From positions 124,001-188,000 of the forward strand of contig JACPOQ010000046.1 of the NCBI GenBank assembly GCA_016191435.1: 64,000 bases of DNA, read 5' to 3'. The notes beneath the pieces were generated by a model. That model was not told where the DNA came from and made no database searches. It saw only the letters and a program-made list of their open reading frames with translations. A program made the translations under genes and the position numbers. The DNA comes from Chloroflexota bacterium (GTDB lineage Bacteria > Chloroflexota > Dehalococcoidia > Tepidiformales > Tepidiformaceae). Of this stretch, positions 1 through 33,701 are shown one piece after another (the first letter of the stretch is position 1; every line of letters begins with the position of its first letter).

Positions 1-382
1 CCAACACGAGCTTTCTCCCCGCGAGTTGCGCCGTGACCGGCGCGTCGTTGTCCGCGCCCCATTCGAAGCTCCGTACAGGCTTGCCCGCCGCCAGGTCCCA
101 CACGATCGCATTGCGCACGGGGATGCGCCGGCCGCCAGTCTCCGTAACCCTGGCGACGCTGCCGTACACGGCCAGCCGGTGCGACCAGTCAATCGGTGTC
201 GCGCTTGCCGCCGGCGACGCGCCCCCCGTCGGTTCAGGCGCGGGCGTCGCGGAGGCCCCCGCCCCTGTGGTCGCGGCAGTGCCGGGCGTGGCCGTCGCCC
301 TGGGCTTCGCATCCCCGCCGCAGGAGGCGACCGCCATCCCGGCCAGTAAGGCAACGGCAAGCGCTCTTACTCGCAATCGCAT
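1..382 (-). CDS. Putative lipoprotein, truncated by window start (MRLRVRALAVALLAGMAVASCGGDAKPRATATPG...)
   Basis: Reverse-strand reading from CAT at 380-382 gives a signal peptide with lipobox-like VASC and a Thr/Pro/Ala-rich linker; open to the window edge. Confidence 0.75.
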   Translation of the reverse strand, partial: MRLRVRALAVALLAGMAVASCGGDAKPRATATPGTAATTGAGASATPAPEPTGGASPAASATPIDWSHRLAVYGSVARVTETGGRRIPVRNAIVWDLAAGKPVRSFEWGADNDAPVTAQLAGRKLVL

Positions 383-561
383 TTCGCCTCACTCTAAGCC
401 GTCCGGCCTTTGCAGTGTCCAACGCCGGTCGATATGCCCGGGTTCCGGCCAATGCCCAACGCCCAACGCCCGTCGGCTACGCCGACATCCTTCGCCCCGG
501 CCTAACGATTTCCGCCCCGGCCCGCCTGCCTGTATAACGGGAGGACACCAAGGAGTACCCA

Positions 562-1776
562 GTGGCACGAATGAAATTCGGCGTCTTCCTCGCCCCGCAC
601 CACCCGATCGGCGAGCACCCCACCCTTCAGATCCGGCGCGATGTCGAGCTCGGAGTCCACCTCGACAATCTCGGTTTCGATGAGTTCTGGGCCGGCGAGC
701 ACCACTCCGGCGGCTGGGAGACCATCGGCTCGCCCGAGCTCTTCCTCGCCGCCGTCGGCGAACGCACGAACCGTATCATGCTCGGCACCGGCGTCGTCTC
801 CCTCCCCTACCACCATCCCTTCAACGTTGCCCAGCGCATGGTCCAGCTCGACCACCTGAGCCGTGGCCGCGCGATGCTCGGCGTCGGCCCGGGCGCCCTG
901 CCCTCCGATGCGCGCACCCTCGGCATCGCCCCCATCACCCAGCGCGACCGCATGGACGAAGCCCTCGGCGTCATCATCCGCCTCCTGCGCGAAGACAAGC
1001 CTTTCAGCTACAAGAGCGATTGGTTCGAACTCAACGACGCCATGCTGCAGATAAAGCCGCTGCAGGAGGACATGCCCATCTGCTCCGCCTCGAGCCTCAG
1101 CCCGGCGGGCATGAAGATCGCGGGCAAGTACGGCGTCGGCGTCATCTCCGTCGCGAGCAACAGCGATGAGGGCCTCGCCGCCCTGCCCACGCAGTGGGGT
1201 TTCGGCGAGACCTACGCCCGCGAACACAACCAGGTCATCGACCGCAAGAACTGGCGCGTCCTCTCCCAGTGGCACATCGCCGATTCGCAGGAAGAGGCAA
1301 TCGCCGATGTTGCCGAGGGCCTGAAGCGCTGGCACAACGAATACAACGTCGACATCCTCGGCCGCCCCGGCGCCAACCACACCGAAAGCGGCGAAGCCAT
1401 GGCCCGCGCGATGGTCAAGTCCGGCGCGGCGATCTTCGGCACCCCGGACGACGCCGTCCGCCAGGTCAGGCACCTCCAGGAGATCAGCGGCGGCTTCGGC
1501 ACGCTCCTCGGTTTCGCCCACGACTGGGCCCCGCGCGACAAGCAGCTCAAGAGCTACGAGCTCTTCGCCCGCTACGTCATCCCGCAGCTCCAGGGGCTCA
1601 TCGAGCCGGTGCAGGCGAGCGCCAACCAGTTCATGGAGCACAAGAGCGAGCTGATGGAAGGCGCAGGCCAGGCCGTGCTCGCCGCTATCCGCGCGCACAA
1701 CGCCACCCACCCCCGCCAGCAAAAGAAGGAAGGGACTGATGGCGGCGTGGTATCGTTCGCGGCCGGGAAGCAGTAG
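562..1776 (+). CDS. LLM class flavin-dependent oxidoreductase (luciferase-like monooxygenase)
   Basis: MKFGVFLAPHHPIGEHPT..., DEFWAGEHHSGGWE, GTGVVSLPYHHPFNVAQRMVQLDHLSRGR motifs; GTG start. Confidence 0.93.
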   Translation: MARMKFGVFLAPHHPIGEHPTLQIRRDVELGVHLDNLGFDEFWAGEHHSGGWETIGSPELFLAAVGERTNRIMLGTGVVSLPYHHPFNVAQRMVQLDHLSRGRAMLGVGPGALPSDARTLGIAPITQRDRMDEALGVIIRLLREDKPFSYKSDWFELNDAMLQIKPLQEDMPICSASSLSPAGMKIAGKYGVGVISVASNSDEGLAALPTQWGFGETYAREHNQVIDRKNWRVLSQWHIADSQEEAIADVAEGLKRWHNEYNVDILGRPGANHTESGEAMARAMVKSGAAIFGTPDDAVRQVRHLQEISGGFGTLLGFAHDWAPRDKQLKSYELFARYVIPQLQGLIEPVQASANQFMEHKSELMEGAGQAVLAAIRAHNATHPRQQKKEGTDGGVVSFAAGKQ

Positions 1777-1793
1777 CTCCCGCGGAGGTTTTC

Positions 1794-2942
1794 GTGACCA
1801 CCATCACCCCCACCCAGGCCAAAGAGACCGTCGAGCGGATGGCCGCTGCCGCGACCGAGTTCCTCGCGGCGCTCACACCCGCCCAGCGCGCGAAAGCAGC
1901 GCTCCCCTTCGAACTGGAAGGCGAGCGCACGCACTGGCACTACACCCCGGTCGCCCGCGCCGGTGTGCCGCTCATCGAGCTCGGTCCGCAGCAGCGGCGG
2001 CTGGCGCACCGCCTCCTCTCCACGGGCCTCAGCGACGGCGGCTACGTCACTGCCGCGACCATCATCGGACTCGAAAACGTCCTCCTCCGCAACGAACGCT
2101 TCCCCGCCCACCCCTACCGGCACTACGACGGCGACAGCATCGGCCGCGACCCGCTGATGTACGTCGCGGCTGTGTTCGGAGAACCCGGCGGCGCCGCGCC
2201 GTGGGGCTGGCACTTCGGCGGCCACCACGTTTCGGTGAACTACACCATCGCCGAAGGCAGCCTGCTCGCCCCTACGCCCACGTTCTTCGGCGCGGACCCC
2301 GCCGATTCCGAGGCCGTCGGGGCGCAGGTGCTGCGCCCGCTCGGGGCCGAGGAGGACCTTGGGCGCGAGCTCTTGCACCTGCTCGACGGCGAGCAGCAGG
2401 CCGTCGCCATCCTCTCGCCCGCCGCGCCGCTCGATATCGTCCAGAGCAACCGCCCGCGCATCGAGGACGGCGCGGCGCCCCTTCCCCTCTGGCAACTCAT
2501 GTCGCCAATGCCGGAAAACCTCGCCGAGGCCCTTCGGCGCACCACCGCCCGTTACGAGGCCGAAAGCGGCTTCGGGCCGGCCGCCCTCGAAGCCGTCCGC
2601 TATGGCGCCACGCCGAAAGGTCTCGCCGCCACGAAGATGAACGCCGGGCAACGGGCCGCGCTGATCGCCCTCATCCAGCAGTACATCGGCCGCATGCCCG
2701 ATGAGGTGGCCGCGTTCGAACACGCCCGCCTCCGCGCGGCCGGCATCGAGCAGGTGCATTTCGCCTGGGCCGGCGGCATCCAGCGCCGCCAGCCTCACTA
2801 CTACCGCCTCCAGGGCCCGCGCTTCCTCGTCGAATACGACAACGTCCAGAACGGCGCGAATCATATCCACGCCGTCTGGCGCGATCCCGAAGGCGACTTC
2901 GGCCGCGACCTCCTCGCCGAACACTACGCCGCCCACCACTGA
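1794..2942 (+). CDS. DUF3500 domain-containing protein
   Basis: Full-length resemblance: FELEGERTHWHYTP, GWHFGGHHVSVNYT, HIHAVWRDPEGDFGRDLL. Confidence 0.85.
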   Translation: MTTITPTQAKETVERMAAAATEFLAALTPAQRAKAALPFELEGERTHWHYTPVARAGVPLIELGPQQRRLAHRLLSTGLSDGGYVTAATIIGLENVLLRNERFPAHPYRHYDGDSIGRDPLMYVAAVFGEPGGAAPWGWHFGGHHVSVNYTIAEGSLLAPTPTFFGADPADSEAVGAQVLRPLGAEEDLGRELLHLLDGEQQAVAILSPAAPLDIVQSNRPRIEDGAAPLPLWQLMSPMPENLAEALRRTTARYEAESGFGPAALEAVRYGATPKGLAATKMNAGQRAALIALIQQYIGRMPDEVAAFEHARLRAAGIEQVHFAWAGGIQRRQPHYYRLQGPRFLVEYDNVQNGANHIHAVWRDPEGDFGRDLLAEHYAAHH

Positions 2943-3006
2943 CGAATTCACGATTCACGATTCCGTGACGCCCGGCCTCAGCACTCAGCACTCAGGACTC
3001 AGCACT

Positions 3007-3786
3007 TTGGAGACCCTGACCGTCACCCGCGACACCGCCCTACCCGGCCTTGTGACGGTCACGCTCGACCGCCCCGAAAAGCTGAACGCCATCAGCTTCC
3101 GCATGCATAGCGAACTGCAGGAAGTCTGCCGCCAGCTCCAGGACGACCCCGAGGCGCGCGTCGTCATCTTCACCGGCGCCGGCCGCGCCTTCTCCGCCGG
3201 CGCAGACCTTGGCTCGCGCAACGGCGCCGCCGGTGCCACGCCGCTCGCCACGCCCGCGCGCGATGAGACGCCGCTCGCCGAACGCCTGCGCGCCAGCGCC
3301 GGCAGCCGCACCAGCGCCGCCCTGGAGGGGCTCGACCAGGTGACCATCGCCGCCGTCAACGGCCTGGCGATTGGCGGCGCCGTCGTCTTTCTCGCCTGCC
3401 TCGATATCCGCATCGCCGAACAATCGGCGTGGTTCTCCATCCCCGAAGTCGACCTCGACATCCCGCTGACCTGGAACGCCCTGCCGCGCCTGATGCGCGA
3501 ACTCGGTCCTGCCCGCACGAAGGAGCTCGTGCTCATGTGCGACCGCTTCAGCGCCGAGGACGCCTGCCGCTGGGGCTTCGTCAACCGCGTCGTCCCGGAC
3601 GGTGAATCGCTCACGAACGCCCGCGAGATGGCCGCCCGCCTCCTCGCGAAGGACCCCATGTCGGTCGCGTTGACCAAGTCCGAGTGCAACGCCCTCGCCG
3701 CCGAGATGGTCCCCACCGCCCCCTCAAACCACGACCGCGACTACCTCATCCTCGCCCGTCTCCTCGGGAAAGAGCGTAAGAAGTAA
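3007..3786 (+). CDS. Enoyl-CoA hydratase/isomerase family protein
   Basis: TLDRPEKLNAISFRMHSEL, FTGAGRAFSAGADL, AAVNGLAIGGAVVFLACLDIRIA; start (TTG 3007) uncertain because the track ORF extends upstream. Confidence 0.85.
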   Translation: METLTVTRDTALPGLVTVTLDRPEKLNAISFRMHSELQEVCRQLQDDPEARVVIFTGAGRAFSAGADLGSRNGAAGATPLATPARDETPLAERLRASAGSRTSAALEGLDQVTIAAVNGLAIGGAVVFLACLDIRIAEQSAWFSIPEVDLDIPLTWNALPRLMRELGPARTKELVLMCDRFSAEDACRWGFVNRVVPDGESLTNAREMAARLLAKDPMSVALTKSECNALAAEMVPTAPSNHDRDYLILARLLGKERKK

Positions 3787-4025
3787 CGCGCGCGCCGACC
3801 TCTCGGTAGTCGTGGCGCTCTGCCACCACTGATGCGACCTCCAATGTTTCCGTCGACGCCCGCTGTCCACCCGCTTCCGTAGCTCCCCAAACCTCTTGCG
3901 CACCGCCCCAGCATCGGCCGTCAGGCCCCGGGAGCAGCGGCGAGGTGTTTGACAGAGCGGAGATCGGCGTGCCGGGCTATGATGCCGACTGGCCCGGCCC
4001 TTTCGCCGCGGGAACAGACTCGTCA

Positions 4026-4775
4026 ATGACCGAGCGCGTGTACTTTTCCGAGCAGCAACACTCTCTTCGTCGCCCTGCGGCCGGGCTCGTACGAAACGAG
4101 ATCCCCGAGCGCGTTCGGTTCGCCGTCATCATGGCGCTCCGCGTGGATTTCGTAGAGGACCAACTCGCGCAGTTGTGGCTGAGTGTCGTCCGGCAGCTCC
4201 ACTGGGACCCTGAGCTCATCGCCGAAGATCGCTACGGAAACAACGATGCCGAACGCAACGCGTCACGCCTTCTTAACCAAATACGCGACTCTGACTACGC
4301 GGATTTCTTGGATCTAACAGGCGCCTTGTTTTACGCCATGCAAGACGGGGAGCTCGCGAGGGTAGATTCCAACTATCACAACGTTTTGAATGAGGCGTTC
4401 GTTCGACACCACTCGGCATACTGGCAGGACAAAGATGGCAAGATACTCGAACCTGGTTCGACCGTCTCGGAAACTGCAATCGAACAAGCGCGCGGCATAC
4501 TCACAAGTGCCGAGATGAACGGCCCTGACCGGCAGTTCCAGGACGCCATCCTCGGGCTCCGCGAGCGGCCGATGCCGAAGTTCGAATCAGCGCTCGCCAA
4601 CGCCGCCAATGCATTGGAAGGCGTAGCGCGCATCGCCCTCGGCGACCGGAACATCGCCTTTGCCGATGCGGTCCGACGGATCAGCAAGGAGAAGGGCCTT
4701 CATCCGGCGCTAGCCGGAATACCAGTCCGAACCAAAGACGCCCTGGAGGGCGCCTTTGCTCCGGGAGGTTCTCAC
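4026..4775 (+). pseudogene. AbiJ-NTD-like / abortive-infection-type protein, apparently 3' truncated and fused in frame to the downstream methyltransferase
   Basis: FSEQQHSLRRPAAGLVRNEIPERVRFAVIMAL... plus C-terminal FESALANAANALEGVARIALGDRNIAFADAVRRISKEKGLHPALA, resembling Abi-type C-terminal domains; the expected remainder is missing. Confidence 0.45.
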
Positions 4776-5813
4776 ATGCCAGTCGACGACTCAGCTGCCA
4801 TACGGTTGCGCCGGATGATAGACGGATACCGAATTTCGCAGGCGATCGCGGTGTTTGCGACGCTCGATCTCGCCGACGTTATCGGCGACGAAACACATCA
4901 CGTTGACGAACTGGCCCGCTCGACCGGCACTGATGTTGGCGCACTGTATCGGCTCCTCCGCGCGCTTGCAGCTGTGGGAGTCCTGGACGAGCGTCCCGGC
5001 AGGCACTTTGCACTGACGGAGATGGGCGCTTGCCTGCGTTCCGGCGCCGCGGAGCCGGTTGGCGGGTGGGCCAGGCTGGCCGCCCGGCCGTACTTCTGGG
5101 AGACGTGGGGGAGTCTCCTGCACTCGGTTAAGACCGGCGAGAACGCGTTCGTGCCCACGCACGACGGGATGCGGGTCTGGGACTGGCGCGCCCAGCACCC
5201 GGATGAGAGCGCCATATTCGGCAACGCGATGCGGGCGAACTCGCGCGTCCAGGCCTAGGCCGATGTCGCCGCCTTCGACTTTGGCCGGTTCGGCGGCGTC
5301 GCCGACATCGGCGGAGGGAACGGCACCTTCCTCGCCACGCTTCTGACCGCCTTTCCCCGGGTCCAGGGCGTGCTCTTCGACCAACCGCACGTGGTGACCG
5401 GGGCGAGCACCATCCTGGAGGCGGCGGGAGTCGCCGGCCGATGCACCGTCATTGGTGGCGATTTCTTCCAAAGCGTCCCGGGCGGGGCTGACGCCTACGT
5501 GTTCAAGAACGTCCTGCACGATTGGGAGGATGATGAGTGCGTTCGCATTTTGGGCGCTGTACGAAGGGCGCGCGAACAGGCGACGGTGCTCATAGTTGAG
5601 TGGGTCGTGGGCCCTCCGAACGAGGACGCAGACGCGAAGTTAAGCGATCTCAACATGCTCGTCATGCCCGGCGGGCGTGAGCGGACACTGGATGAATGGG
5701 ATCGGCTGCTCGATGCCGCCAGCTTCCAACGGGTCGGCGTCTCTCTTTCCCGCTCCGGGCGAAGCATTATGGAGGCAAGAGCCATCCCGCCCGCCGAACT
5801 CGGACTGCTCTGA
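4776..5813 (+). pseudogene. SAM-dependent O-methyltransferase (acetylserotonin/hydroxyneurosporene type) interrupted by in-frame TAG at 5256-5258
   Basis: N-terminal dimerisation/winged-helix domain, then after TAG ADVAAFDFGRFGGVADIGGGNGTFLATLL; VFKNVLHDWEDDECVRIL. Both halves in the same frame; GGAGG 7 nt before ATG 4776. Confidence 0.8.
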
Positions 5814-5906
5814 AAATCGCCCCGGGGACCGCGCCAACCGCCGCCCACCACCCCCTTTCGAACGCGCCGCCGAGCTGCCGCGCCACCGGCATTCAGTTGT
5901 CCTCGC

Positions 5907-5935
5907 TTGGCCGCTTGCTGACGCGCGCGGTTCCG
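5907..5935 (+). repeat. Dispersed motif TTGGCCGCTTGCTGACGCGCGCGGTTCCG, copy 1 (others 11712-11740 and, inverted, 52351-52378)
   Basis: Near-identical at three intergenic/gene-end sites. Confidence 0.85.
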
Positions 5936-5966
5936 GTACTCAGGCCCCGGGCCTCGGGTCTCGGGC

Positions 5967-6953
5967 CTAGAAGTACACCGCGTCCGTGTACAACCCGCGG
6001 CCCTTCGCGCCCGCTGGTTCCGCGATGCCCGGCGTCCAGAAATCCATCGCACTGGCGCCCGCCGCCAGCGGCGCGAGGAGCGCGTGCGCCGGCCGCGATT
6101 CAGATGCGAACAACCCCAGCTCCGTCATGCCGCGTTTGGCCGACCAGCCGCACCACGCGCGCAGCAGCGCAAGAAACCGCGGCTCGGCGCCCGCGATGTA
6201 CCCGTAGTCCAGCACGGCGCCATCGCGCAGTTCGTGCCACGGACCGGCGCCCACACGCGCCCGCGTCGATAGCGATTCCCCCTCCGGCCACAGGCCGAGC
6301 ACCGCCCCATCGTCGATCCAGAGGCGATCCCAGCCATACTGCGCAGGTGCCCGCTCCAGCCGCGCCCGCAGCGATTCGGCCGTATAGGGAAGGAACATCT
6401 CCTCGCCGGCGTGCGTGGCGTTCAAAATCGCGGCGACGGTGTGCGCGTCCGCGGGTGTGGACGGCCTCCCGGCTGGCGCCCCCGCGAGCGCGGCGCAATC
6501 GAACCGCAGCCGCACCGGCCCGAAGCTCCAGCGATTTGTCGCCGCCTTTGCGAACGCCTGGGACGTCGCGTTTTCCGGCCCAATGTAGAAGTACGTCGTA
6601 TCGCTCGGCCGCGCTTTCAAGGTCTCAGTCATCGCGTCCCCGCAGGCCCGGCCCACGCCCATCCGCTGGAATTCCGGCCGCACCCGCGCATGGTGGATGT
6701 ACGTCGCCGTGATCGGCCGCCCGCCAATGGCTGCTCCGTGCCGCGCGGCGCAGTACACGGCGGCCGGCTCGCCATCCACCTCGGCGAGCAACACAGTTAC
6801 ATCCTCCATCAGCCGTGCTGCCGCGAAGTAGTCGGTCCCACGGTCGATAACCAGCTGGCGTTCGCCGAAGACCAGTGGCGACCGCCGCTCGACCTCCGCG
6901 AGCAGGGCCGCGTCGGCCTCGGTGGCGATGCGGACGCTCACCCGTGCGCTCAT
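5967..6953 (-). CDS. GNAT family N-acetyltransferase
   Basis: ARVRPEFQRMGVGRACGDAMTETL acetyl-CoA binding motif. Confidence 0.82.
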   Translation of the reverse strand: MSARVSVRIATEADAALLAEVERRSPLVFGERQLVIDRGTDYFAAARLMEDVTVLLAEVDGEPAAVYCAARHGAAIGGRPITATYIHHARVRPEFQRMGVGRACGDAMTETLKARPSDTTYFYIGPENATSQAFAKAATNRWSFGPVRLRFDCAALAGAPAGRPSTPADAHTVAAILNATHAGEEMFLPYTAESLRARLERAPAQYGWDRLWIDDGAVLGLWPEGESLSTRARVGAGPWHELRDGAVLDYGYIAGAEPRFLALLRAWCGWSAKRGMTELGLFASESRPAHALLAPLAAGASAMDFWTPGIAEPAGAKGRGLYTDAVYF

Positions 6954-7298
6954 GCCCGCATTCTACGTGCAACGGCCTGCGCCTCGCCGCCCACGACCCT
7001 CGCGGCGGCTGCACAATGGTCGACATAAACCCGACAGTACCTGCAATGTAGTAAGCCTGCGCTTGTATCGTCTGCTTTGTCCCGCGAGCGATTGTTATAT
7101 AACTGCAACACCGAAACGGACCAACTGCCCTATGCACGGGCGGTTCACCCCCGGCAAGCAGGATGGAACTCACGGCGTTCGAGACAGCCGGCTTGCAAGA
7201 ATTGTGACGAAACCGTCATCTCTTTTTGCACAGGACCGGTCGACAGAAGAAAAACATGCTTGTTACTATCCGGGCCAGCCTTCAGCAGGAGCCGAGCA

Positions 7299-7829
7299 TT
7301 GCTACTTCATCAACGCGTGGCCGTTGGGGCCGCGGCTGTGATCGTCGCGACCGCCGGGTGGGCGCTCATCGGCCAGGGGACGGTGCGTCCGGTTGAAGCC
7401 GCGCCGGCCCAGGCGACCAACACGCCGACCAACACGCCGACGAACACGCCCACCAACACTCCAGCCAACACGGTGACGCCCACGGCCACCGGCACAGCGA
7501 CGAATACGCCGACCGCGACCGCAACGGCCACTGCGTCCGTGACGGCGACGCCCACTTCCACGAGCGCCGCGACCTCGACGCCCACGCGGACGTCCACGCC
7601 GTTCCCCACGGCCGTGCCGTCTACGGCCACTCCCAACGCTACGGCGACCGCCGCCGCCAGCGCGACCGCGCTGGCTAGCGCCACCCCGAGCGTGACGCCC
7701 ATCGCGCCAAGGACGGGAAGCGGCACCGGCGGCTCAGGTGGCTTCTCGCCGCTCCTGGCAGTCGTCCTCGGCACGCTGGGCCTTGGCGCCAGCGGCCTCG
7801 TCCTCGGCCTCCGCCGAAGCGGGCACTAG
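7299..7829 (+). CDS. Thr/Pro-rich cell-surface protein with N-terminal signal and C-terminal transmembrane anchor
   Basis: TNTPTNTPTNTPTNTP low-complexity stalk; GSGTGGSGGFSPLLAVVLGTLGLGASGLVLGLRRSGH C-terminus; TTG start inferred. Confidence 0.65.
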   Translation: MLLHQRVAVGAAAVIVATAGWALIGQGTVRPVEAAPAQATNTPTNTPTNTPTNTPANTVTPTATGTATNTPTATATATASVTATPTSTSAATSTPTRTSTPFPTAVPSTATPNATATAAASATALASATPSVTPIAPRTGSGTGGSGGFSPLLAVVLGTLGLGASGLVLGLRRSGH

Positions 7830-8554
7830 TCCGGCATATACTCGCCGCGGGCCGATTCCATCGGCTCGCCGGCGAGGCGGGCGGCGAGCCACTCGAGCAA
7901 AAGGCGGTCCACCTGGACTTTCGCCTGGATGAGTGAGTGGCCCGTGTCCGCGAACAGCACGATCTTCTTCGGGTCCAGCGCCCGCCGGTAGATGTCCTCG
8001 CTCGCTTCGTGGTCGAGGACGCCGTCCGCAGCGCCGTGCACGAGCAGCAGCGGCCGCCCGAGCTGCTCCACCTGGCGCGTGCCATACAGCTGTGGCGAAA
8101 GCGACGCCACGGCCCGCACGATCGGGGACAGCTGCCCGGCCTTTATCACCACTGCTCCGCCAAAGCTGTGCCCCACGAGCGCGATGTCCGTCGCTCCCAG
8201 CCCGCGCAGGAACGAGCACCCCGCCAGCGCATCGAGCACGCACTCCTCGAACTCATTCGGCTTGCGGTACTCGACGCGGAGCGTCGTGATCCCCTCGGCC
8301 GCGAGCGCGCCCGCGAGCCGCGCGTAGAGGCCGTCCGCCGGGCCCTGCAGCCCGCCCATCGCGCCGCCCACGCACACCACGGCTGCCGTCCCGCCCTCGA
8401 CCGCGTGGAGGATGCCCTCGATGTCTCCCCGCGTCGTGTCGAGCAGCACGCGGAAGCTCCCCGGCTCGTCACCAGGCGCGGCCGCCACGCGGTTGAGCCG
8501 CAGGTTCAGGTCCTCCGCCGGCTCTTCCGGCTCGTCCCACATGTTTCCCGGCAT
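7826..8554 (-). CDS. Alpha/beta hydrolase (dienelactone hydrolase-like)
   Basis: VALVGHSFGGAVV nucleophile elbow; late Asp (LVHGAADGVLDH) and His (DTGHSL). Confidence 0.85.
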   Translation of the reverse strand: MPGNMWDEPEEPAEDLNLRLNRVAAAPGDEPGSFRVLLDTTRGDIEGILHAVEGGTAAVVCVGGAMGGLQGPADGLYARLAGALAAEGITTLRVEYRKPNEFEECVLDALAGCSFLRGLGATDIALVGHSFGGAVVIKAGQLSPIVRAVASLSPQLYGTRQVEQLGRPLLLVHGAADGVLDHEASEDIYRRALDPKKIVLFADTGHSLIQAKVQVDRLLLEWLAARLAGEPMESARGEYMPD

Positions 8555-8706
8555 CGCCTCCGACTATACGAGCCCGCCGCCCCCGCGACGTAGCATTACG
8601 CCATCACCCACTCGGCACTCGGCACTGGGCACTCCGGCCTCGGCACTCTGACCTCGGCACCCCGGCATCGCGACTTACGCTCCCGGCTGCTAGCATCCGA
8701 CCCGAG

Positions 8707-10608
8707 ATGTGTGGAATTGCTGGCATCCTCCGTGCCGGCGGCGAGCCAATCCCGCCCGGCCAGATCGAGGCGATGATCGCCACGCTGCGCCATCGCGGCC
8801 CCGATGGCGACGGCCGCTTTTTCGCGCCCGGGATTGCCTTCGGCCACACCCGCCTTGCCATCATCGACCTCTCTGCCGCGAGCGATCAGCCCATCATCGA
8901 TGACGTCGCGGGCCTCTCCCTCACCTTCAACGGCGAGATCTACAACTACGTCGAACTGCGTTCGGAGCTGCGCGCCCTCGGCCACCAGTTCCGCTCGCAG
9001 GGCGATGGCGAAGTCCTGCTGCGCGCTTACGAGCAGTGGGGCGTCGAAGCGCTGCCGCGGCTCAACGGCATGTTCGCGTTCGCGCTCTGGGATAGCCGCC
9101 GCCGCCAGCTCCTGCTCGCCCGCGACCGCTTCGGTGAGAAGCCCCTCTACCTCGCGCGCTCGCCCCGCGGCGTCGTCTTCGGCAGCGAAATGAAGGCGAT
9201 CCTCGCCGTGCGCCCTGAGTTGCGCGTGGCCAACCGCAAATCCGTCTTCCGTTACCTTTCGCGCGGCGACCTGGACCTGGACCAGGAAAGCTTCTTCGCA
9301 GGCATCGAGGCGCTGCCTGCCGCCCACTACCTGCTCCTTGATGCCGATGGCGCCGGCCGCGCGAAGCGCTACTGGCGCGCCACGTCCACGTCCGTCTCGC
9401 TCTCGCACCGCACCGCCGTTGAACGCTACCGTGAGCTGCTCTTCGATGCCGTGCGCATCCGCCTCCGCAGCGACGTGCCCGTCGGCAGCAGCCTCAGCGG
9501 CGGCCTCGATTCGTCCAGCATCGTCGCCACCATCAACGCCGAAAAAGGCAACCAGGAGATCCACCAGAGCACTTTCAGCGCGCGCTTCAAGTCGCGCGCG
9601 CACGATGAGGGCCACTTCATCGACCTCATGACCTACGAGGTCGACGCCGAGCCCCACGTCGTCTGGGTCGAACCCGACCGTTTCGCCACCGAATTCGAAC
9701 TCGTCCAGTGGCACCAGGAAGAGCCCATCGCCAGCGCCAGCCCCTACGCGCAATGGATGGTGATGCGGCTCGCGCAGGAGCGGGGAGTCACCGTCCTCCT
9801 CGATGGGCAGGGCGCCGATGAGTCCCTCGCCGGCTACGACCAGGCGCATGGCATGTTCTGGGCGCACTGGCTCCGGCGCGGACGCCTCGATAAGGTTGGC
9901 CGCGAAACGCTGGCCTTTGCCCGCCGCTACCACGGTGGCCTCGGCGACCCGGCGCTCTTCAGCGCCTACTACCTGCTTCCCGGCCGCCTCCGCGACGGCC
10001 TCGCCGAGCTCTACTACCGCTCCGCGCAGGTCGTTTCGCCGTCACTGCACAGCGAATTCTCGCCCGCCCACGTCGATACCTACGAGCCTTTTCCCGACCG
10101 CCTGCGCAACGAGCTCGTCCGCTGGCAGGCCACCACCCAGCTCCCCGAGTTCCTCCGCTACGCCGACCGCAACAGCATGGCCTTCAGCCGCGAAGTCCGC
10201 CTCCCGTTCCTCGATCACCGGCTCGTCGAATACTGCTTCGGCCTCCCGCCGGACCTCGTCCTCAGCCGCGCCGTCACGAAGGTGGTGCTCCGCGAAGCGA
10301 TGCGCGGCATCGTCCCCGACGAGATATTGGACCGCAAGGACAAGCTCGCCTACGCCCCGCCCCAGAAGCAGTGGATCCACGGCGCCCTCCGGCCATGGGT
10401 TGAAGCGCAGCTGGTCTCCGCCGAATCCCGCACCGACGTCTTCAACCCGCGCGCCGTGCTCAACCTTCGGGAGCGGCTCCGCACGGACGGCGGCGAGACG
10501 CTTGCCTGGCGCGTTGCGAGCACCGAGGCCTGGTACCGGACGCTCATCGACGAGTCCGGGCCCGGCACGTCCCGCGGCCGTGCGGAACTTAGCGCACTTA
10601 GCTGGTAA
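8707..10608 (+). CDS. asnB: Asparagine synthase (glutamine-hydrolyzing)
   Basis: MCGIAGILRAGG N-terminal Cys, RHRGPDGDG, SLSGGLDSSSIVA PP-loop. Confidence 0.95.
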   Translation: MCGIAGILRAGGEPIPPGQIEAMIATLRHRGPDGDGRFFAPGIAFGHTRLAIIDLSAASDQPIIDDVAGLSLTFNGEIYNYVELRSELRALGHQFRSQGDGEVLLRAYEQWGVEALPRLNGMFAFALWDSRRRQLLLARDRFGEKPLYLARSPRGVVFGSEMKAILAVRPELRVANRKSVFRYLSRGDLDLDQESFFAGIEALPAAHYLLLDADGAGRAKRYWRATSTSVSLSHRTAVERYRELLFDAVRIRLRSDVPVGSSLSGGLDSSSIVATINAEKGNQEIHQSTFSARFKSRAHDEGHFIDLMTYEVDAEPHVVWVEPDRFATEFELVQWHQEEPIASASPYAQWMVMRLAQERGVTVLLDGQGADESLAGYDQAHGMFWAHWLRRGRLDKVGRETLAFARRYHGGLGDPALFSAYYLLPGRLRDGLAELYYRSAQVVSPSLHSEFSPAHVDTYEPFPDRLRNELVRWQATTQLPEFLRYADRNSMAFSREVRLPFLDHRLVEYCFGLPPDLVLSRAVTKVVLREAMRGIVPDEILDRKDKLAYAPPQKQWIHGALRPWVEAQLVSAESRTDVFNPRAVLNLRERLRTDGGETLAWRVASTEAWYRTLIDESGPGTSRGRAELSALSW

Positions 10609-21632: not shown

Positions 21633-22298
21633 ATGACGCGTGACCTCTTCTCGCGCGAGATCAGTGAGCTCCAGGACGAGGTGCTGATTCTCGGCTCGAT
21701 GGCCGAAAAGGCCATCCTCGATTCCATGGAAGCCCTTCGCGACGGCGATATCCGGTGGTCCCAGAAGCTCGTCGAAGACGATCAGCGCATCAACGCCAAG
21801 CGCTTCGAGATCGAAGAGCGCTGCATCTTCGTGATCGCCTCCCAGCAGCCCATGGCCACGGACTTGCGCGCGCTCGTCAGCATGCTCTTCATCATCACGG
21901 ACCTCGAACGCATCGCCGACCACGCCGAGGGCATCGCGCGCATCAATGTCATGCTCGGCGATGAGCCCCTCCCCCGCCGCCTCGGCTACATCCCCTCGAT
22001 GGCCGACCGCTCCGTCGCCATGCTGCGCGATAGCCTGAAGGCCTACATCGAACAGGACACCGCCCTCGCCCGCCAGATCTGCGAAGCCGACGACGAAGTC
22101 GACCGCCTCCACGACCGCGTCTACGAGGATTCCACCGCCGCGATGATCGCCGACCCGCGTACCATCCAGCGCAACACCTACATGCTCTGGACCTCGCACA
22201 ACCTCGAACGGATCGCCGACCGCTGCACGAACATCTGCGAGCGCGTCATCTACCTCGTCACCGGCAACATGGAAGAGATCAACGTCTCGAAGTACTGA
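21633..22298 (+). CDS. phoU: Phosphate signalling complex protein
   Basis: MTRDLFSREISELQDEVLILGSMAEKAI; RIADHAEGIARI; NLERIADRCTNICERVIYL. Confidence 0.95.
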   Translation: MTRDLFSREISELQDEVLILGSMAEKAILDSMEALRDGDIRWSQKLVEDDQRINAKRFEIEERCIFVIASQQPMATDLRALVSMLFIITDLERIADHAEGIARINVMLGDEPLPRRLGYIPSMADRSVAMLRDSLKAYIEQDTALARQICEADDEVDRLHDRVYEDSTAAMIADPRTIQRNTYMLWTSHNLERIADRCTNICERVIYLVTGNMEEINVSKY

Positions 22299-22491: not shown

Positions 22492-22520
22492 TTGACAGCT
22501 GAATTGCGAAATTCTAACAT
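22492..22520 (+). promoter_or_regulatory. Sigma70-type promoter TTGACA-N17-TAACAT
   Basis: Perfect -35, 17-bp spacer, 4/6 -10; 6 nt before the GTG start at 22527. Confidence 0.75.
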
Positions 22521-22526
22521 GCCGAC

Positions 22527-23015
22527 GTGTTTTTGGCGCGGTACCTCGAATGGGCGGTCTCAATTATCACGGCAAGCGCCCTTGCCGTCGCGGCGTTTCA
22601 CAAGCTTTCAAACCCCAGGGCCGCAAAGGTGGCAATAGCCATCACGGGGGTGCCAATCCGGGCAACAGGCCTGGTAGCAGCGACCGCCGCCGGCTTAGAA
22701 TCGGCGGTGGCGTTGGGACTTCTGATCTTAGGCCCATTTGGTAACGTCGCTGCCGCAGTTCTACTTATTACTTATCTGCCGGTTGCTGCTTCCGGCCCCT
22801 GCAAATGCATCCCGGGTCCCAAGTGGCTAAACGCCAGACCTGTCGCCCGAAATCTGACATTAATCACCGCCAACATGGCTGTTGTGTTAGGTCAAGAGCG
22901 ATGGAGCCCTCTTCCACTTCGGCTTCTGAGTCTCGGTCCTATCGCAGCCTTTTCATTCGCGCTGTATCTGTATTTCGATCGGAGGACAACTCGTGTTGCT
23001 GATGTCGCGTACTGA
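22527..23015 (+). CDS. MauE/DoxX-like redox-associated membrane protein
   Basis: Four-TM protein with AAFHKLSNPRAAKVAI and SGPCKCIPGPKWLN Cys pair, as in MauE-like proteins. Confidence 0.7.
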   Translation: MFLARYLEWAVSIITASALAVAAFHKLSNPRAAKVAIAITGVPIRATGLVAATAAGLESAVALGLLILGPFGNVAAAVLLITYLPVAASGPCKCIPGPKWLNARPVARNLTLITANMAVVLGQERWSPLPLRLLSLGPIAAFSFALYLYFDRRTTRVADVAY

Positions 23016-23619
23016 TCTCCTCTTGATCGCCAGTTCGGCGTTGCTTTGGCTCGTAGTGATGTTTGGCGTACTACTCCTGCTGGTGCTGCTGAGAATCGTT
23101 GGCAGTATTCAACTGGCCCATTCGGGAGAAGTCCGCGCCGAGCGGCTCAGTGCCCGACCGCAGGTGGGCGCGCTGATTCCGGCATTTTCGGCGGTAAATT
23201 TAAGTACACGCGAACCTATCATTCGCGCAACCTTACTAGGAAACCCCACCCTTCTCATCGTCGTTACGCCAGGGTGCTCCGCATGCGACAACGCCGTGGC
23301 TTGGGCTCAGGCATCGCTTCAAGACCGCACCATCGTCCTTATCTCCGCGCCCCTTGAGCAAAGTTCAAGAGCCGCGCGGATTTGGGGCGAGCGGCAGCAT
23401 TTAGCCTACTGTGCAGCCGAAGATATCGATCAGACGCTCAGCGTTCCGTCGACTCCGTTCGCTATTCGCCTCGACGAGATTGGCACCATAACTGCGGCTC
23501 AGCCGATCGTCGACCGGGATGATTGGGACTCTTTAATGACAGCCAGCGCAGTCCAGCGAACGCTTTGGGGCGGGCCCGACACTGTGAATGGCGAGAGTCT
23601 TGCTAAGACCCAGCCGTGA
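22993..23619 (+). CDS. MauD/TlpA-like membrane-anchored thioredoxin-fold protein
   Basis: N-terminal TM, VGALIPAFSAVNL, LLIVVTPGCSACDN (CxxC), overlaps the upstream gene. Confidence 0.72.
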   Translation: MLLMSRTDLLLIASSALLWLVVMFGVLLLLVLLRIVGSIQLAHSGEVRAERLSARPQVGALIPAFSAVNLSTREPIIRATLLGNPTLLIVVTPGCSACDNAVAWAQASLQDRTIVLISAPLEQSSRAARIWGERQHLAYCAAEDIDQTLSVPSTPFAIRLDEIGTITAAQPIVDRDDWDSLMTASAVQRTLWGGPDTVNGESLAKTQP

Positions 23620-23644
23620 AAGTGAAAGAAGAGGCGCCCGCAGC

Positions 23645-24040
23645 ATGATTACTACGAAAGCGGAAACTTGCCTGATTTCAGTAAGTCGGCGCGTAGCGAC
23701 CGTGTCAACGAGTCGACGTCGAGTTCTCAAACTCGGTGCGGCGACTGCGGCGGCGACGGCCGCGGTATTCCTTCGCGGCGTTTCGCCCGCCCTAGCGGCG
23801 TGTACTTGCCCGGCTTGCACAACGAAGCCATGCCCCTGCTGCGCCTCGTGTGGATTCTGCACTGGCGAGTGCTGTGCCGGTGGAGCTTGCCAATGCGGGG
23901 CCGATCTGGGTGGGTGGTTTTGCTGCTATCCAGGACTTTGCGCAACGTTCTTCTGTAGGGACTGCGCTAGCATTTGCGGCGCAGGGACGTGCCCCTGTAT
24001 CTGCCTTAGCGGGCCGTTCGGCGGCTGTTCACCGTGCTAA
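23645..24040 (+). CDS. TAT-exported ultra-cysteine-rich protein (23 Cys in the ~80-aa mature region)
   Basis: Twin-arginine signal TSRRRVLKLGAATAAATAAVFLRGVSPALA then ACTCPACTTKPCPCCASCGFCTGECCAGGACQCGADLGGWFCCYPGLCATFFCRDCASICGAGTCPCICLSGPFGGCSPC. Confidence 0.82.
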   Translation: MITTKAETCLISVSRRVATVSTSRRRVLKLGAATAAATAAVFLRGVSPALAACTCPACTTKPCPCCASCGFCTGECCAGGACQCGADLGGWFCCYPGLCATFFCRDCASICGAGTCPCICLSGPFGGCSPC

Positions 24041-24117
24041 GCCTAGAAGGCTTCAAGGCGGGGTTGATTGCGGTGATAGCCGGTTGGTACGCGCTTTCCG
24101 CGATTCCTGGAGGGTGA
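24034..24117 (+). CDS. Possible 27-aa hydrophobic peptide (VLSLEGFKAGLIAVIAGWYALSAIPGG)
   Basis: GTG start overlaps the stop region of the Cys-rich gene; single-TM-like composition. Confidence 0.3.
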   Translation: MLSLEGFKAGLIAVIAGWYALSAIPGG

Positions 24118-24171
24118 AGCCTCTCAACAGCCGAGGTTCTCGGCTCGACACCGTCACGAAGGTACGTTTAC

Positions 24172-24672
24172 ATGGCGATCTTCGCAGCCACGACCATTTC
24201 CGTCGCAGTCACCTTCGGGTTTGCCTTAGGGATGCTTGGGTCCGCCCTTCGAGCCACGACCGGCACAGTGGAATTCGTTCCAGCCGCGGTTCTCATTGGC
24301 TGTTCGCTGGGCGCCTGCATCATCACCTTGCGCAGCGAACAACTGCCTCGGTGGTGGTGGACCGCGGGTCCCGCGCCCGGAGCTGCACTAACCGGACTAG
24401 CGTTCGGCATCGGGGGGTTCATCGTTGCCGGGCGCGCCCAATATCCTTTTCTTCTGGCCGCCTGTGTAGCCGCCGCAGATGCGAGAATCGCGGCGCTCGG
24501 GACGGGCATCGCAGCAAGCGTGCTTGTAACTGGCATCGTTGGTCTTGCCACGTCCGCAACGCAGCCCAGAAACGAAGCAGCCGGATCTATTGCCATGGGC
24601 GGGCAAGCCCGAAGTTCGATCACGCTCTTTTGGCGAATGGCATCCGGGAAGTATTGGAGGGGTTCACGATGA
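24172..24672 (+). CDS. Hypothetical integral membrane protein
   Basis: Multiple hydrophobic segments; ATGA overlap with the next ORF. Confidence 0.6.
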   Translation: MAIFAATTISVAVTFGFALGMLGSALRATTGTVEFVPAAVLIGCSLGACIITLRSEQLPRWWWTAGPAPGAALTGLAFGIGGFIVAGRAQYPFLLAACVAAADARIAALGTGIAASVLVTGIVGLATSATQPRNEAAGSIAMGGQARSSITLFWRMASGKYWRGSR

Positions 24673-25136
24673 GGTATGAGCAGTTCAAATCTGCCGCTGA
24701 GCTTTGGCAGGCGGTGCCATTTGCCCCTATTGCGTCCGAAGGTCTCCTCCCGCGGCTCGGCTTCAAGCTCCGGGCGACTATTCGGCATCTAGGGGAGAAC
24801 GTTGATGCGGCTTTTCTAACGTACGCCCCCGACATCGACACCAGTTCGCTCAATCCCATCGCCCGCGATCTAGTGATCGTGGGCAAGGGCCACGGGAGTA
24901 GGTGCGCGCTCGTAGCGAGCGAAGGCCCACCGGGCCGCATTGGCCGCCACATCCTGCCTGACGGTCGAATCGCAACATGGGGAGCCGGGTTGCCTCCTAC
25001 TTGGAAGAATTTGCGGCCTGCATGGGTAAGTTGGGCTTCGAGCGAAGGCCAGACTTGCAGAGTTGAGAGCGGCGACATCCTCCTCCAGACGCTCATCGAC
25101 ATTGCGGATCACCTGTCGTCTCAGCCGGGAGGGTAG
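24669..25136 (+). CDS. Hypothetical protein
   Basis: ATG at 24669 overlaps upstream TGA; in-frame tail of track ORF 23850-25136; no family recognised. Confidence 0.6.
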   Translation: MRYEQFKSAAELWQAVPFAPIASEGLLPRLGFKLRATIRHLGENVDAAFLTYAPDIDTSSLNPIARDLVIVGKGHGSRCALVASEGPPGRIGRHILPDGRIATWGAGLPPTWKNLRPAWVSWASSEGQTCRVESGDILLQTLIDIADHLSSQPGG

Positions 25137-26142
25137 CGCTCTGCGCGTCCATTTTCTGGCAGTATGTGCTCTCTTTGGCGCCGTCGTCGCCTGGCTCTTG
25201 TTGGTTCAGCCGTTTGCATCGCAAAATGACGACCCGCTCATAGATCGAGCGAGGATTCTTCGCGAGCGTCCGCTGATGGTAACGTTCACTCCTCGTGACC
25301 GGAGTCTCGGGCCGCCGGCCTACACCATCTGGCTCGTAGGCCCGGATACTTGGGTTTGGGATCAGGACATTTCGAGCGACGAGCTTCGCCAGTCGATAAT
25401 CGTTCGTGGCGGAATGTCGCTGCTGCAGGTCGCACCGTCGTGTTTCGTGGGCGCGGGCACCGTTTCCCTTCCCCCAATCCCCGGCTTGACGTTTGCAGAG
25501 ACTGGAGCAGAAATGTGGAACCGCGCCGAATCCAAGGATACAGTGCGCTACCGAGCTCGGCCAATTGCTGGTTCCGCGACGGTAGATGTGACCGAGACAG
25601 TTGATTCGCGGTCGAGATCCATCCGAGCAACACTCGGACCTTCAGCCGTGCCGGCCTTGGACGGGACATTCCAAGTCGCACCCGTTAGCCCATCGGGGGT
25701 TCCCTCGGCGCTTGCAAGTGCAGCTAGCTCCCCGATCGCCGTCATATCCCTCAGTAGTCGGCTGGTGCGATCCGGCGTCACCGATCCGGTCGTTCCGACT
25801 GAAGTCATGGTTCCTGAAGCCTGCCCCGCGCACGCGTTCACCCGGGAAACGTTGGCGATACGAGGTGTCGAGCGGCCCTTGGCGCAGCCGGTGACCTTCG
25901 ATGTGGCGCAACGCGGACGGTGCTTTACAGCGGAGGGCGTACGGCCTCTCGATTCCGCAATCGAAATGAACGGTCCTGCGGACGACATACTTCGCCTTGG
26001 AATGAGCGTCGTGCCGGCCGCTGTCACGATTACGGGAGGCGAACGATTCTTGGTCGGGGACAATTCGACGCAGGTGTTCGCGGCTATCTTAATTAACAAA
26101 TGTCAACTTCCAGATGGGACCGAGTGTTGCACCATGGGCTAG
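25063..26142 (+). CDS. Hypothetical exported/membrane-anchored protein, C-terminal Cys motif (NKCQLPDGTECCTMG)
   Basis: Single N-terminal TM (VHFLAVCALFGAVVAWLLLVQPF); exact start unclear (likely ~25108-25150). Confidence 0.6.
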   Translation: MRAATSSSRRSSTLRITCRLSREGSALRVHFLAVCALFGAVVAWLLLVQPFASQNDDPLIDRARILRERPLMVTFTPRDRSLGPPAYTIWLVGPDTWVWDQDISSDELRQSIIVRGGMSLLQVAPSCFVGAGTVSLPPIPGLTFAETGAEMWNRAESKDTVRYRARPIAGSATVDVTETVDSRSRSIRATLGPSAVPALDGTFQVAPVSPSGVPSALASAASSPIAVISLSSRLVRSGVTDPVVPTEVMVPEACPAHAFTRETLAIRGVERPLAQPVTFDVAQRGRCFTAEGVRPLDSAIEMNGPADDILRLGMSVVPAAVTITGGERFLVGDNSTQVFAAILINKCQLPDGTECCTMG

Positions 26143-26342: not shown

Positions 26343-26418
26343 GCGGGTGTAGCGTAGTGGTTAACGCGTCTGGTTGTGGCCCAGAAGATCGAGGGTTCGA
26401 ACCCCTTCACTCGCCCCA
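26343..26418 (+). tRNA. tRNA-His (anticodon GTG), CCA encoded
   Basis: Cloverleaf by eye: acceptor GCGGGTG/CACTCGC, anticodon loop TTGTGGC, T-arm GAGGGTTCGAACCCC, extra G-1 opposite C73. Confidence 0.97.
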
Positions 26419-30917: not shown

Positions 30918-31457
30918 ATGAAAGACTACTACGGAATCCTTGGGTTGCCCCGGTCTGCTGGCCCCGATTCGATTAACGATGCGAAGCGTCGACTGTCTTT
31001 TCTCTACCACCCTGACTCCCGCGCGAAGGATATGGACGGGAGCTGGGCTGACGAACGAATTCGAGAGATCAACGAGGCTTGGGACGTACTGAGCGATCCC
31101 GCACGCAGGGCCGCATATGACCGCGCAACCCCATCCACGCGCAACGCTACGGCACTGCCAGTCCTCGCCGTCTCTCCTCTTGAAGTCGAGCTTATCGGGA
31201 TCGCTCCCAACGGCCTCGCGAGATTCGCGGTCGACATTGTTCAAGTCGGCGGACCTCCTTTTGACGCCGCCATTCACGACCTCGAGATTGGTTGGGGTAT
31301 GCCCTGGGACAAATCTCAGTTGCGATACGACGCCGGCGGGAGTGTGAGTCCGCCATTGACCTTGACGTTCGAGATGGATCTATCCGCGAGCGGGTTCAAT
31401 TCCGATACTGAGTATGTTGGCGACTTCGTGGTCAACGCGGTCGCGAGGGCTAGCTAG
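30918..31457 (+). CDS. J-domain (DnaJ-like) protein with C-terminal beta-domain
   Basis: DYYGILGLPRSAGPDSINDAKRRLSFLYHPDS, EINEAWDVLSDPARRAAYDRA. Confidence 0.87.
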   Translation: MKDYYGILGLPRSAGPDSINDAKRRLSFLYHPDSRAKDMDGSWADERIREINEAWDVLSDPARRAAYDRATPSTRNATALPVLAVSPLEVELIGIAPNGLARFAVDIVQVGGPPFDAAIHDLEIGWGMPWDKSQLRYDAGGSVSPPLTLTFEMDLSASGFNSDTEYVGDFVVNAVARAS

Positions 31458-32198
31458 TTGGAGCCCGACGAAGTTACGAAGACCACAACCTTGACATCCT
31501 TGGGCCAAGGAGCCAAATCGGTAGCCCGGTTGAACCTTTCAGAAATCGCTGCCGAACAGAAGGCGTCGAAACCGAAGGTCGACATCGTATTCGTGATTGA
31601 CACCACGGGAAGCATGAACGACAAGATCGCTGGGTTAGTCGGGACTCTGCAGATCCTTGCTGACTGCCTGGGCGAAAAGAGCGCAGACTGGACGGCGGCG
31701 GTCGTTGCCTTTGGTGACCTCACCGTCCCTGGGGACACAATCGCAGCTACCCCATTCACAGCTTCTGTTCCGATGCTCAAGCGTTCGTTGGGGAACCTTC
31801 CCCATAACCATGGCGGCGGCAATGAAGGCGAGTCCTCATTTGAGGCGCTCCAAAAGGCGATAGTCCTCCGCGGGTTCCGCCGCGACTCCATCAAAGTCGC
31901 GGTCCTGATAACCGACGAACCTGCCCTTCAGCACACGGTCACGAGCCGAGATGTTTCAAAGTCCGTGCGCTCCGCGGAGATGATCTTGTTCGTTGTGTCA
32001 CCTTCTCTGAACTACTACCGGCAACTCGCGAAGGACAACGGAGGGGAGTGGTTTCAGGTATCGGCAACTACCAACCTCAAGGCGATACTCGCCCTGTTCG
32101 ATAAGCTGAGCCGTTCCGTTGCCATCGCCGTCGAGAAGGTCCACTTGCTCGGTGGCGGGAGTGTGGAAGCCTACCTCAGCCTCCCAAAGGGCAAGTAG
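31458..32198 (+). CDS. von Willebrand factor A domain protein
   Basis: VDIVFVIDTTGSMNDKI MIDAS (DxTGSM), HGGGNEGESSFEALQKAI; TTG start directly follows the upstream stop. Confidence 0.85.
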   Translation: MEPDEVTKTTTLTSLGQGAKSVARLNLSEIAAEQKASKPKVDIVFVIDTTGSMNDKIAGLVGTLQILADCLGEKSADWTAAVVAFGDLTVPGDTIAATPFTASVPMLKRSLGNLPHNHGGGNEGESSFEALQKAIVLRGFRRDSIKVAVLITDEPALQHTVTSRDVSKSVRSAEMILFVVSPSLNYYRQLAKDNGGEWFQVSATTNLKAILALFDKLSRSVAIAVEKVHLLGGGSVEAYLSLPKGK

Positions 32199-32201
32199 CC
32201 C

Positions 32202-33701
32202 GTGGCCAAGTTCACCCTTCGGGTTCGAACGGGGAGTCGAACGCTTGATCCCTCCTCTGGAGCGCCTGCGCCCGCCCCGGGACCTGCGGCACCTCCGCCC
32301 CCGCTGACGACATCCCCGCAACGGAAGAGAATGTACCTCGCTCTGGCCATCGGTTCTGGCGTTCTGCTCGTTGCTCTCGGCTCCGTCGCCATAGCCGCGG
32401 GTTCTAGCGCGGGCCCGTCCCGACCGGCTGTTGACCCATCTGCATTAACTGAATTTGCTACCCCGCTGCCAACGTGGATCCCAAGGCCCGCGTCTGTGGA
32501 GCCCACAGCCGTTCCGTTCGCCGGCACGTCGAGCGCTCCAAGTTCGAGATCAATCGCCGGGACATGGCGGCTGGTGGACAGTCCAACCTTCGGACCAGAC
32601 GCCGGGGAAACCTTCTCGTTCGATATTAGCCTTCAAGAATCGGGGGTTAGAGTCAGCGGTGAAGCACTGGGCACGGATTTTGCAATCTCAGGTACCCGCG
32701 AAGGTGATCGTGTGCGCGTCGAGTTCGCTCGATCCGGAGGTCGCGGGTACTTCGATTGGATGATTACTTCGGACGGACGGCTCTCCGGAACATACGAGGA
32801 TTACGGAGCGAAAAACGGCGGCACGAGCGTCGGCGTCCGAGTCGATTCGGCCCGAACTCCCACGCTGCCAGCTCTGCAGTCGCCGACCGTCAGTTCCGCA
32901 GGTGCTCCGCCTGCCCCGACGGCGGTGCCAGCAGCGAACGCGACTGTCACACCGCCTTCGCGCTCGCCGAGTGCGACGCCGTCGACGCCAGCGCCTACAT
33001 CATTCGGCGGTCGCTCGCCGGCCGCAACCGCCACGACGCAAGCGACGTCAACGCCAGCGTTGGACGTGGCGCCGAGAAGCAGTTTTCCTGATGGTGCCTA
33101 TGCAGTGCCCGCTGAGGTCCCTCCAGGAACGTACCGAAACGGCGGCGGGGTATTTTGCTCCATCTATAGGAATGGAGCTCTGTTAGACTACGGCAGCGGA
33201 TCGTTTATCGTTACGGTCGACTCCAGTTGGTCCATTTTCCGCTCCACTGGCTGCGGCACGTGGGCGCCTGCCACGTCAGGAGGCGCCAGAGGCAGCTTTC
33301 CAGATGGCGCCTATGCGGTGCCCACTGAGGTTGCTCTAGGAGCGTACCGAAACAGCGGCGGGGGATTTTGCTCCATCTACAGGAATAGAACGCTGTTGGA
33401 TTACGGCAGCGGACAGTTCATCGTTACGGTCGACTCTGGTTGGTCCATTTTCCGCTCCACGGGCTGCGGCACGTGGGCGCCTGCGACGCCCGGAGGCCAG
33501 AGAAGCAGCTTTCCGGATGGCGCCTATGCGGTGCCCACTGAGGTTCCTCCAGGAGGGTACCGAAACAGCGGCGGGGGATTTTGCTCCATTTACAAGAACG
33601 GAACTCTGTTAGACTACGGCAGCGGACAGTTCCTCGTCCAAGTCGACAGTACTTGGTCGATCTTCCGATCAACCGGATGTGGCACTTGGACGAGGCAGTG
33701 A
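32202..33701 (+). CDS. Single-TM protein with Pro-rich cytoplasmic N-terminus and three ~71-aa C-terminal repeats
   Basis: TM MYLALAIGSGVLLVALGSVAIAA; repeats SSFPDGAYAVP.EVPPG.YRNSGGGFCSIY...DYGSG.F.V.VDS.WSIFRSTGCGTW. Confidence 0.82.
   Translation: MAKFTLRVRTGSRTLDPSSGAPAPAPGPAAPPPPLTTSPQRKRMYLALAIGSGVLLVALGSVAIAAGSSAGPSRPAVDPSALTEFATPLPTWIPRPASVEPTAVPFAGTSSAPSSRSIAGTWRLVDSPTFGPDAGETFSFDISLQESGVRVSGEALGTDFAISGTREGDRVRVEFARSGGRGYFDWMITSDGRLSGTYEDYGAKNGGTSVGVRVDSARTPTLPALQSPTVSSAGAPPAPTAVPAANATVTPPSRSPSATPSTPAPTSFGGRSPAATATTQATSTPALDVAPRSSFPDGAYAVPAEVPPGTYRNGGGVFCSIYRNGALLDYGSGSFIVTVDSSWSIFRSTGCGTWAPATSGGARGSFPDGAYAVPTEVALGAYRNSGGGFCSIYRNRTLLDYGSGQFIVTVDSGWSIFRSTGCGTWAPATPGGQRSSFPDGAYAVPTEVPPGGYRNSGGGFCSIYKNGTLLDYGSGQFLVQVDSTWSIFRSTGCGTWTRQ
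33078..33698 (+). repeat. Three in-frame ~213-bp tandem repeats (start ~33078, 33291, 33504)
   Basis: Nucleotide and protein repeat, see ORF 32202-33701. Confidence 0.9.

Follow-up and report, generated by a model that had tools for sequence, protein, structure and literature searches.

A horizontally acquired MauE/MauD/MauF-like gene block around an extremely cysteine-rich exported protein in a Chloroflexota genome

In Paracoccus denitrificans, which carries the methylamine dehydrogenase (MADH) cluster mauFBEDACJG, methylamine metabolism cannot proceed without MauE and MauD, and it has been suggested that MauE forms the disulfides of the light chain, as recounted in PMC7794033. The same 2020 paper, on decRiPPter, described MauE-containing gene families in Streptomyces, one of them with both MauE and MauD, which encode predicted precursors with at least eight cysteines and include no other mau genes; a role for MauE and MauD in maturing cysteine-rich precursors outside mau clusters has hence already been proposed. 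The locus considered here lies in a 64,000 nucleotide stretch (the window; positions 124,001 to 188,000 of contig JACPOQ010000046.1, assembly GCA_016191435.1) of a Chloroflexota bacterium, and comprises six closely packed genes on the forward strand at 22527-26142, all of whose open reading frames (ORFs) were verified at their positions. It shares with the P. denitrificans cluster MauE, MauD and MauF-like proteins, a cysteine-rich protein exported by twin-arginine translocation (TAT; hereafter the client), the order E-D-A and a MauA-like leader. It differs in lacking MauB, amicyanin and MauG, in having two additional orphan genes, in a client with 23 cysteines rather than 12 and one rather than two of the tryptophans of tryptophan tryptophylquinone (TTQ), and in a MauF-like protein that corresponds to the C-terminal half of MauF only and is encoded downstream. 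With the decRiPPter families it has in common MauE/MauD homologues beside a cysteine-rich precursor and the absence of a mau enzyme; what sets it apart from those Streptomyces loci is the TAT leader, the presence of a MauF-like protein, and relatives that can be recognised as MADH light chains. Clusters on the Thermomicrobium roseum megaplasmid NC_011961 and on PLJM01000008 share with it MauE, MauD, a MauF-like protein and a TAT-type cysteine-rich protein, without the heavy chain (PF06433) or MauG, but their cysteine-rich proteins keep both TTQ tryptophans and precede exported proteins termed propeller-like, a label that reflects a reading by eye of proteins with no Pfam or PDB match.

The interpretation we consider probable is that the block is an acquired, divergent mau-derived maturation module, serving a repurposed light-chain-like client that is incapable of forming TTQ. 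As family membership and motifs suggest, the MauE-like (CxC) and MauD-like (CxxC) proteins would constitute a membrane thiol-disulfide relay which, together with the MauF-like protein, would stabilise and oxidatively fold one dedicated exported client, in which as many as eleven disulfides could form. The client would descend from MauA, retaining a core resembling that around Trp57 and Asp76 while having lost the second TTQ tryptophan, and the anchored product of the sixth gene may, at a guess from its position, be the extracytoplasmic partner of the client.

The MauD-like protein (22993-23619) has an N-terminal hydrophobic anchor and a thioredoxin-like domain with the active site PGCSAC, the cysteines of which (C95 and C98) are invariant in the alignment. 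It matches TIGR02661 (E = 3.9e-13, 49.3 bits), far from reaching the equivalog cut-off of 188.6, and in the shuffling control it scores 82.8 bits, a value attained by none of 1623 scored shuffles; by these profile matches it is classed as a homologue of MauD, not an equivalog. Its position in a tree of MauD proteins is without support (0.21). The MauE/DoxX-like membrane protein (22527-23015, GTG start), the ORF of which overlaps that of the MauD-like protein by 23 nt, matches PF07291 below the cut-off of 27 (E = 1.4e-4, 22.6 bits) and has a CxC motif, PCKCIPG, in place of the CGCF of P. denitrificans MauE. An earlier reading of this DNA from its sequence alone (the sequence-only reading) had named this pair, and took the polytopic membrane protein encoded at 24172-24672 to be an unknown. 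The latter aligns with the C-terminal half of MauF (hhalign 80.6%, E = 1.3e-5, against 1.9% for a PstC phosphate permease control), and scores 10.1 bits against a MauF-type hidden Markov model (HMM), where the best of 2000 shuffles reached 9.4. Furthermore, an HMM built without MauF, from the polytopic neighbours found in relatives, assigns 53.8 bits to P. denitrificans MauF (shuffles at most 4.2). On this remote similarity the protein is judged to be MauF-like, with the N-terminal half of MauF missing.

The client gene (23645-24040) encodes a twin-arginine leader, SRRVATVSTSRRRVLKLG, and a mature part (23801-24037) of 79 aa, of which 23 are cysteines (29%) and one is tryptophan, with many CC and CxC pairs, in accordance with the original description. 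The leader matches PF10518 below the cut-off (E = 0.0042) and resembles that of MauA, and the gene order E-D-A is kept. An unforced local hhalign match covers W-x-C-C ... R-D-C of the client against the stretch from Trp57 to Asp76 of MauA (numbering counted on the P. denitrificans sequence), such that the single tryptophan aligns with Trp57, and the CRDC of the client with the YRDCC of MauA (Asp76) in an itself uncertain alignment, with counterparts of Trp108 and Asp32 absent. We take Trp57 and Trp108 to be the residues from which TTQ forms in MauA; because one of these two is missing, TTQ is excluded for the client, and on the interpretation above it does not belong to a methylamine dehydrogenase. 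The one tryptophan left, which aligns with Trp57, is adjoined by CC and is accompanied by an Asp76-like residue, could be imagined as the source of a new protein-derived cofactor made independently of MauG, with the gene 6 product as catalytic partner. A Cys-Trp quinone or a hydroxytryptophan would be examples, for which the odd number of cysteines might be cited; we regard this as very improbable.

The same composition invites the suggestion that the client is a secreted metal-binding protein, akin to metallothioneins or bufferins, whose cysteines bind metal while MauE and MauD hold the redox state of the thiols. The cysteine content and the many CC and CxC pairs would suit such a role, as would the odd count, which leaves at least one cysteine unpaired. 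This appears quite improbable, however, as the partners are related to maturation factors of a disulfide-containing protein, and family scans recognised no metal regulator, transporter or resistance gene in the inserted block.

Several results weigh against the derivation of the module, and of the client in particular, from a mau cluster. The client matches no Pfam family, PF02975 included, and nothing in the PDB; its mature sequence scores 20.3 bits against a MauA-only HMM, a value matched by 110 of 1000 shuffles and thus not significant, and the addition of two intermediates (G579 and G000b) to the HMM reduces this to a marginal 9 of 1000, or 2 of 1000 with the cysteines fixed. The hhalign probability against the MauA profile is 6%, and an AlphaFold2 (AF2) model with ten relatives has a mean confidence (pLDDT) of 43, too poor for fold searches. 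In addition, the score of the MauE-like protein was reached by 4 of 1998 shuffles, which is weak evidence for its assignment. Filing the client as MauA was accordingly rejected, and the initial judgement that it is not recognisably MauA holds. Because the mature-sequence evidence is weak, its kinship with MauA rests mainly on gene context and leader; descent from MauA is nevertheless likely, given its setting between the MauD-like and MauF-like genes, its leader, and the existence of intermediates such as a protein encoded on contig C97 of the same assembly, which matches the MauA profile at 96.8%, the match being limited to the leader and N-terminus.

The cysteine-rich proteins of relatives are more readily placed. 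That of Candidatus Dormiibacterota PLJM01000008 (G476) scores 37.5 bits against PF02975, where the cut-off is 25, and matches the MADH light chain 3c75_L in the PDB (E = 8e-12, leader included). In leave-one-out comparisons, proteins from two further genomes (G048 and G639) and MauA itself score 69-82 bits, with none of 1000 shuffles reaching these values (at most 43). The G476, G639, G048 and T. roseum proteins fall into one light-chain group in which Trp57, Trp108 and Asp76 are kept, and they are, on this profile and alignment evidence, clear homologues of the MADH light chain; one T. roseum protein bears the RefSeq name 'methylamine dehydrogenase light chain'. A PF02975 scan of 246 genomes gave sub-cut-off noise only, as it did in control genomes. 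As several relatives thus encode true light-chain homologues, the window client is most likely derived from MauA.

In agreement with the sequence-only reading, which had seen no heavy chain or MauG, neither PF06433 nor PF03150 (MauG) could be found in six Chloroflexota assemblies, including this one, which is about 90% complete, or on the T. roseum plasmid, the T. roseum chromosome lying outside the search. The P. denitrificans plasmid, used as a positive control, gave 701.7 and 147.4 bits respectively. The positioning of propeller-like proteins next to the light-chain-like genes of the two-tryptophan relatives might be taken to indicate that the window encodes a real, highly divergent TTQ-type dehydrogenase, with the gene 6 product (25102-26142) as an unrecognised heavy chain. 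This seems scarcely credible, since the client has no Trp108 counterpart, MauG is absent, and the gene 6 product is unlike the propellers of relatives, which themselves match neither MauB nor any PDB chain; as candidate MauB homologues, these propeller-like proteins were therefore rejected. On the T. roseum plasmid, positions 1001-10352 (L084) contain four light-chain-like genes, one seemingly frameshifted near 4930; anchored propeller-like proteins follow light-chain-like genes, and then come a propeller-MauE fusion, MauD and a MauF-like protein. This cluster resembles a family of TTQ-type enzymes for which neither heavy chain nor MauG can be recognised on the plasmid.

The distribution of the gene arrangement was studied at 22 loci found through MauD searches. 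A cysteine-rich ORF with a TAT-like leader occurs within the fetched flanks of 12 of them by script, or 15 if three cases recognised by eye (L006, L057 and L083) are added; the corresponding control gave three unrelated matches in 236 kb of DNA. The MauE-MauD-cysteine-rich triplet thus recurs across Chloroflexota, so that the absence of the triplet from relatives, which the sequence-only reading had named as refuting its proposal, does not hold. The clients differ in cysteine number, with 14 in the L012-L017 family, 20 in G476, G639 and the C97 module, and 16 in G579. No relative of the window client outside this genome was detected by a search with its own sequence in 40 related genomes. A scan of genome contigs returned nothing with MauD, and with the light-chain-like protein a single contig, the already known one from Dormibacteria.

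Several of these loci have features of their own. The 17 kb contig C97, which is binned with this assembly but whose membership in the organism is uncertain, carries at 277-4093 (L080/L087) a second module of MauE, MauD, cysteine-rich TAT and MauF-like proteins, followed downstream by genes for an ABM-like monooxygenase (PF03992, sub-cut-off at E = 0.0017) and a lipoprotein. On contig C37 of G048 (3083-4909, L083), a MauE-MauD fusion adjoins a twin-arginine protein with approximately 12 cysteines in its C-terminal 30 residues. The L012-L017 clusters contain 14-cysteine clients, sometimes in two copies, together with a conserved twin-arginine protein and an acyl carrier protein, and beta-ketoacyl synthase genes lie nearby. 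In Ktedonobacteria-like genomes (L047 and L048), MauE/MauD and small cysteine-rich TAT proteins are found next to an ATPase and large ABC permeases of FtsX-like type.

The six-gene block is foreign DNA acquired by horizontal transfer. Its GC content at third codon positions (GC3) is 0.56-0.67, compared with 0.805-0.944 in 16 neighbouring genes, and it separates phoU (21633-22298, forward strand), the orthologues of which in two relatives are 75-82% identical, from a tRNA-His(gtg) gene (26343-26418, forward strand) that adjoins phoU in those relatives. The distance from the phoU stop codon to the tRNA is 4044 bp in the window, but 53 and 73 bp in the family members G017 and G008. It is the combination of the empty site with codon usage that makes the insertion firm, and the suspicion of acquired DNA first raised by the lower GC of the block and its location is borne out. 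No convincing attachment-site repeats surround the block, and no integrase was found. Other modules also look foreign by composition, with a GC3 of 0.70-0.76 against 0.88-0.95 in neighbours on contig C97, and of 0.44-0.50 against 0.90 in host neighbours in G048; among these, an empty site is known only for the window copy. A MauE/MauD module dedicated to an exported cysteine-rich protein, as the sequence-only reading had proposed, is likewise supported. Its candidate system is not wholly novel and its three partners are not all unknown, as one partner is MauF-like, several relatives encode true light-chain homologues, and the association of MauE/MauD with cysteine-rich precursors was published in 2020.

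The sporadic occurrence of such modules with foreign composition suits a mobile trait, and might be expected if the client were a disulfide-rich exported peptide, of the kind of bacteriocins or other ribosomally synthesised and post-translationally modified peptides (RiPPs), that is not descended from MauA and has recruited MauE/MauD, and perhaps MauF, as oxidative maturation enzymes. This is what decRiPPter (PMC7794033) proposed for the Streptomyces clusters, and it would accommodate the pairing of MauD homologues with very diverse cysteine-rich clients, such as those beside the FtsX-like ABC proteins or that with the 12-cysteine C-terminal tail. It is considered unlikely for the window, where relatives with the same gene order encode true light-chain homologues beside MauF-like proteins, and where family scans of the cluster picked out neither an ABC exporter nor a protease or a modifying enzyme. 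Furthermore, TAT export of precursors of about 130 aa is unusual among RiPPs.

The two remaining genes of the block are orphans. Gene 5 (24669-25136), translationally coupled to the preceding gene through ATGA, encodes a soluble protein with no family, no PDB relative and no match in 60 other genomes. Gene 6 (25102-26142, with a TTG start at 25102 or 25063) encodes an N-terminally anchored exported protein with the C-terminal tail NKCQLPDGTECCTMG, for which a search of relatives with its own sequence gave only one weak match of 55 residues, and an AF2 model was uninformative (pLDDT 36). Neither has any similarity to the propeller, lipoprotein or ABM-like families found as neighbours elsewhere; gene 6 occupies the position at which relatives encode a propeller-like protein (G639 and G476) or a lipoprotein (the f66 family, C97). 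The view that one promoter drives five or six tight or overlapping genes holds as regards the packing of the six genes, not all of which overlap, gaps of 25 and 131 nt separating the client gene from the MauD-like and membrane protein genes respectively. A weak sigma-70-like candidate, TTGACA-17-TAACAT (22492-22520, forward strand), ends 6 nt upstream of the GTG start, but as one such site was found where 1.1 are expected by chance, a single promoter for the block is unproven. A second low-GC block at 30918-33701 (GC3 0.62-0.70), which encodes a DnaJ-domain protein, a VWA protein and a 499-aa protein without assignment, has possibly also been acquired.

New in these data are, first, the combined MauE-MauD-client-MauF-like module without heavy chain or MauG, whose composition is foreign to several of the genomes that carry it, and second, a series of clients graded from light-chain homologues with two tryptophans to the form with 23 cysteines and one tryptophan. 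The set of proteins used to assemble MADH (MauE, MauD and MauF) would hence also live outside methylamine oxidation, as a mobile module with a fast-changing and extremely cysteine-rich client. With the graded client series, what MauE, MauD and MauF do in disulfide formation can be tested independently of the enzyme, and the two-tryptophan homologues lacking a recognised heavy chain or MauG raise the question of whether TTQ-like cofactors may be made without MauG.

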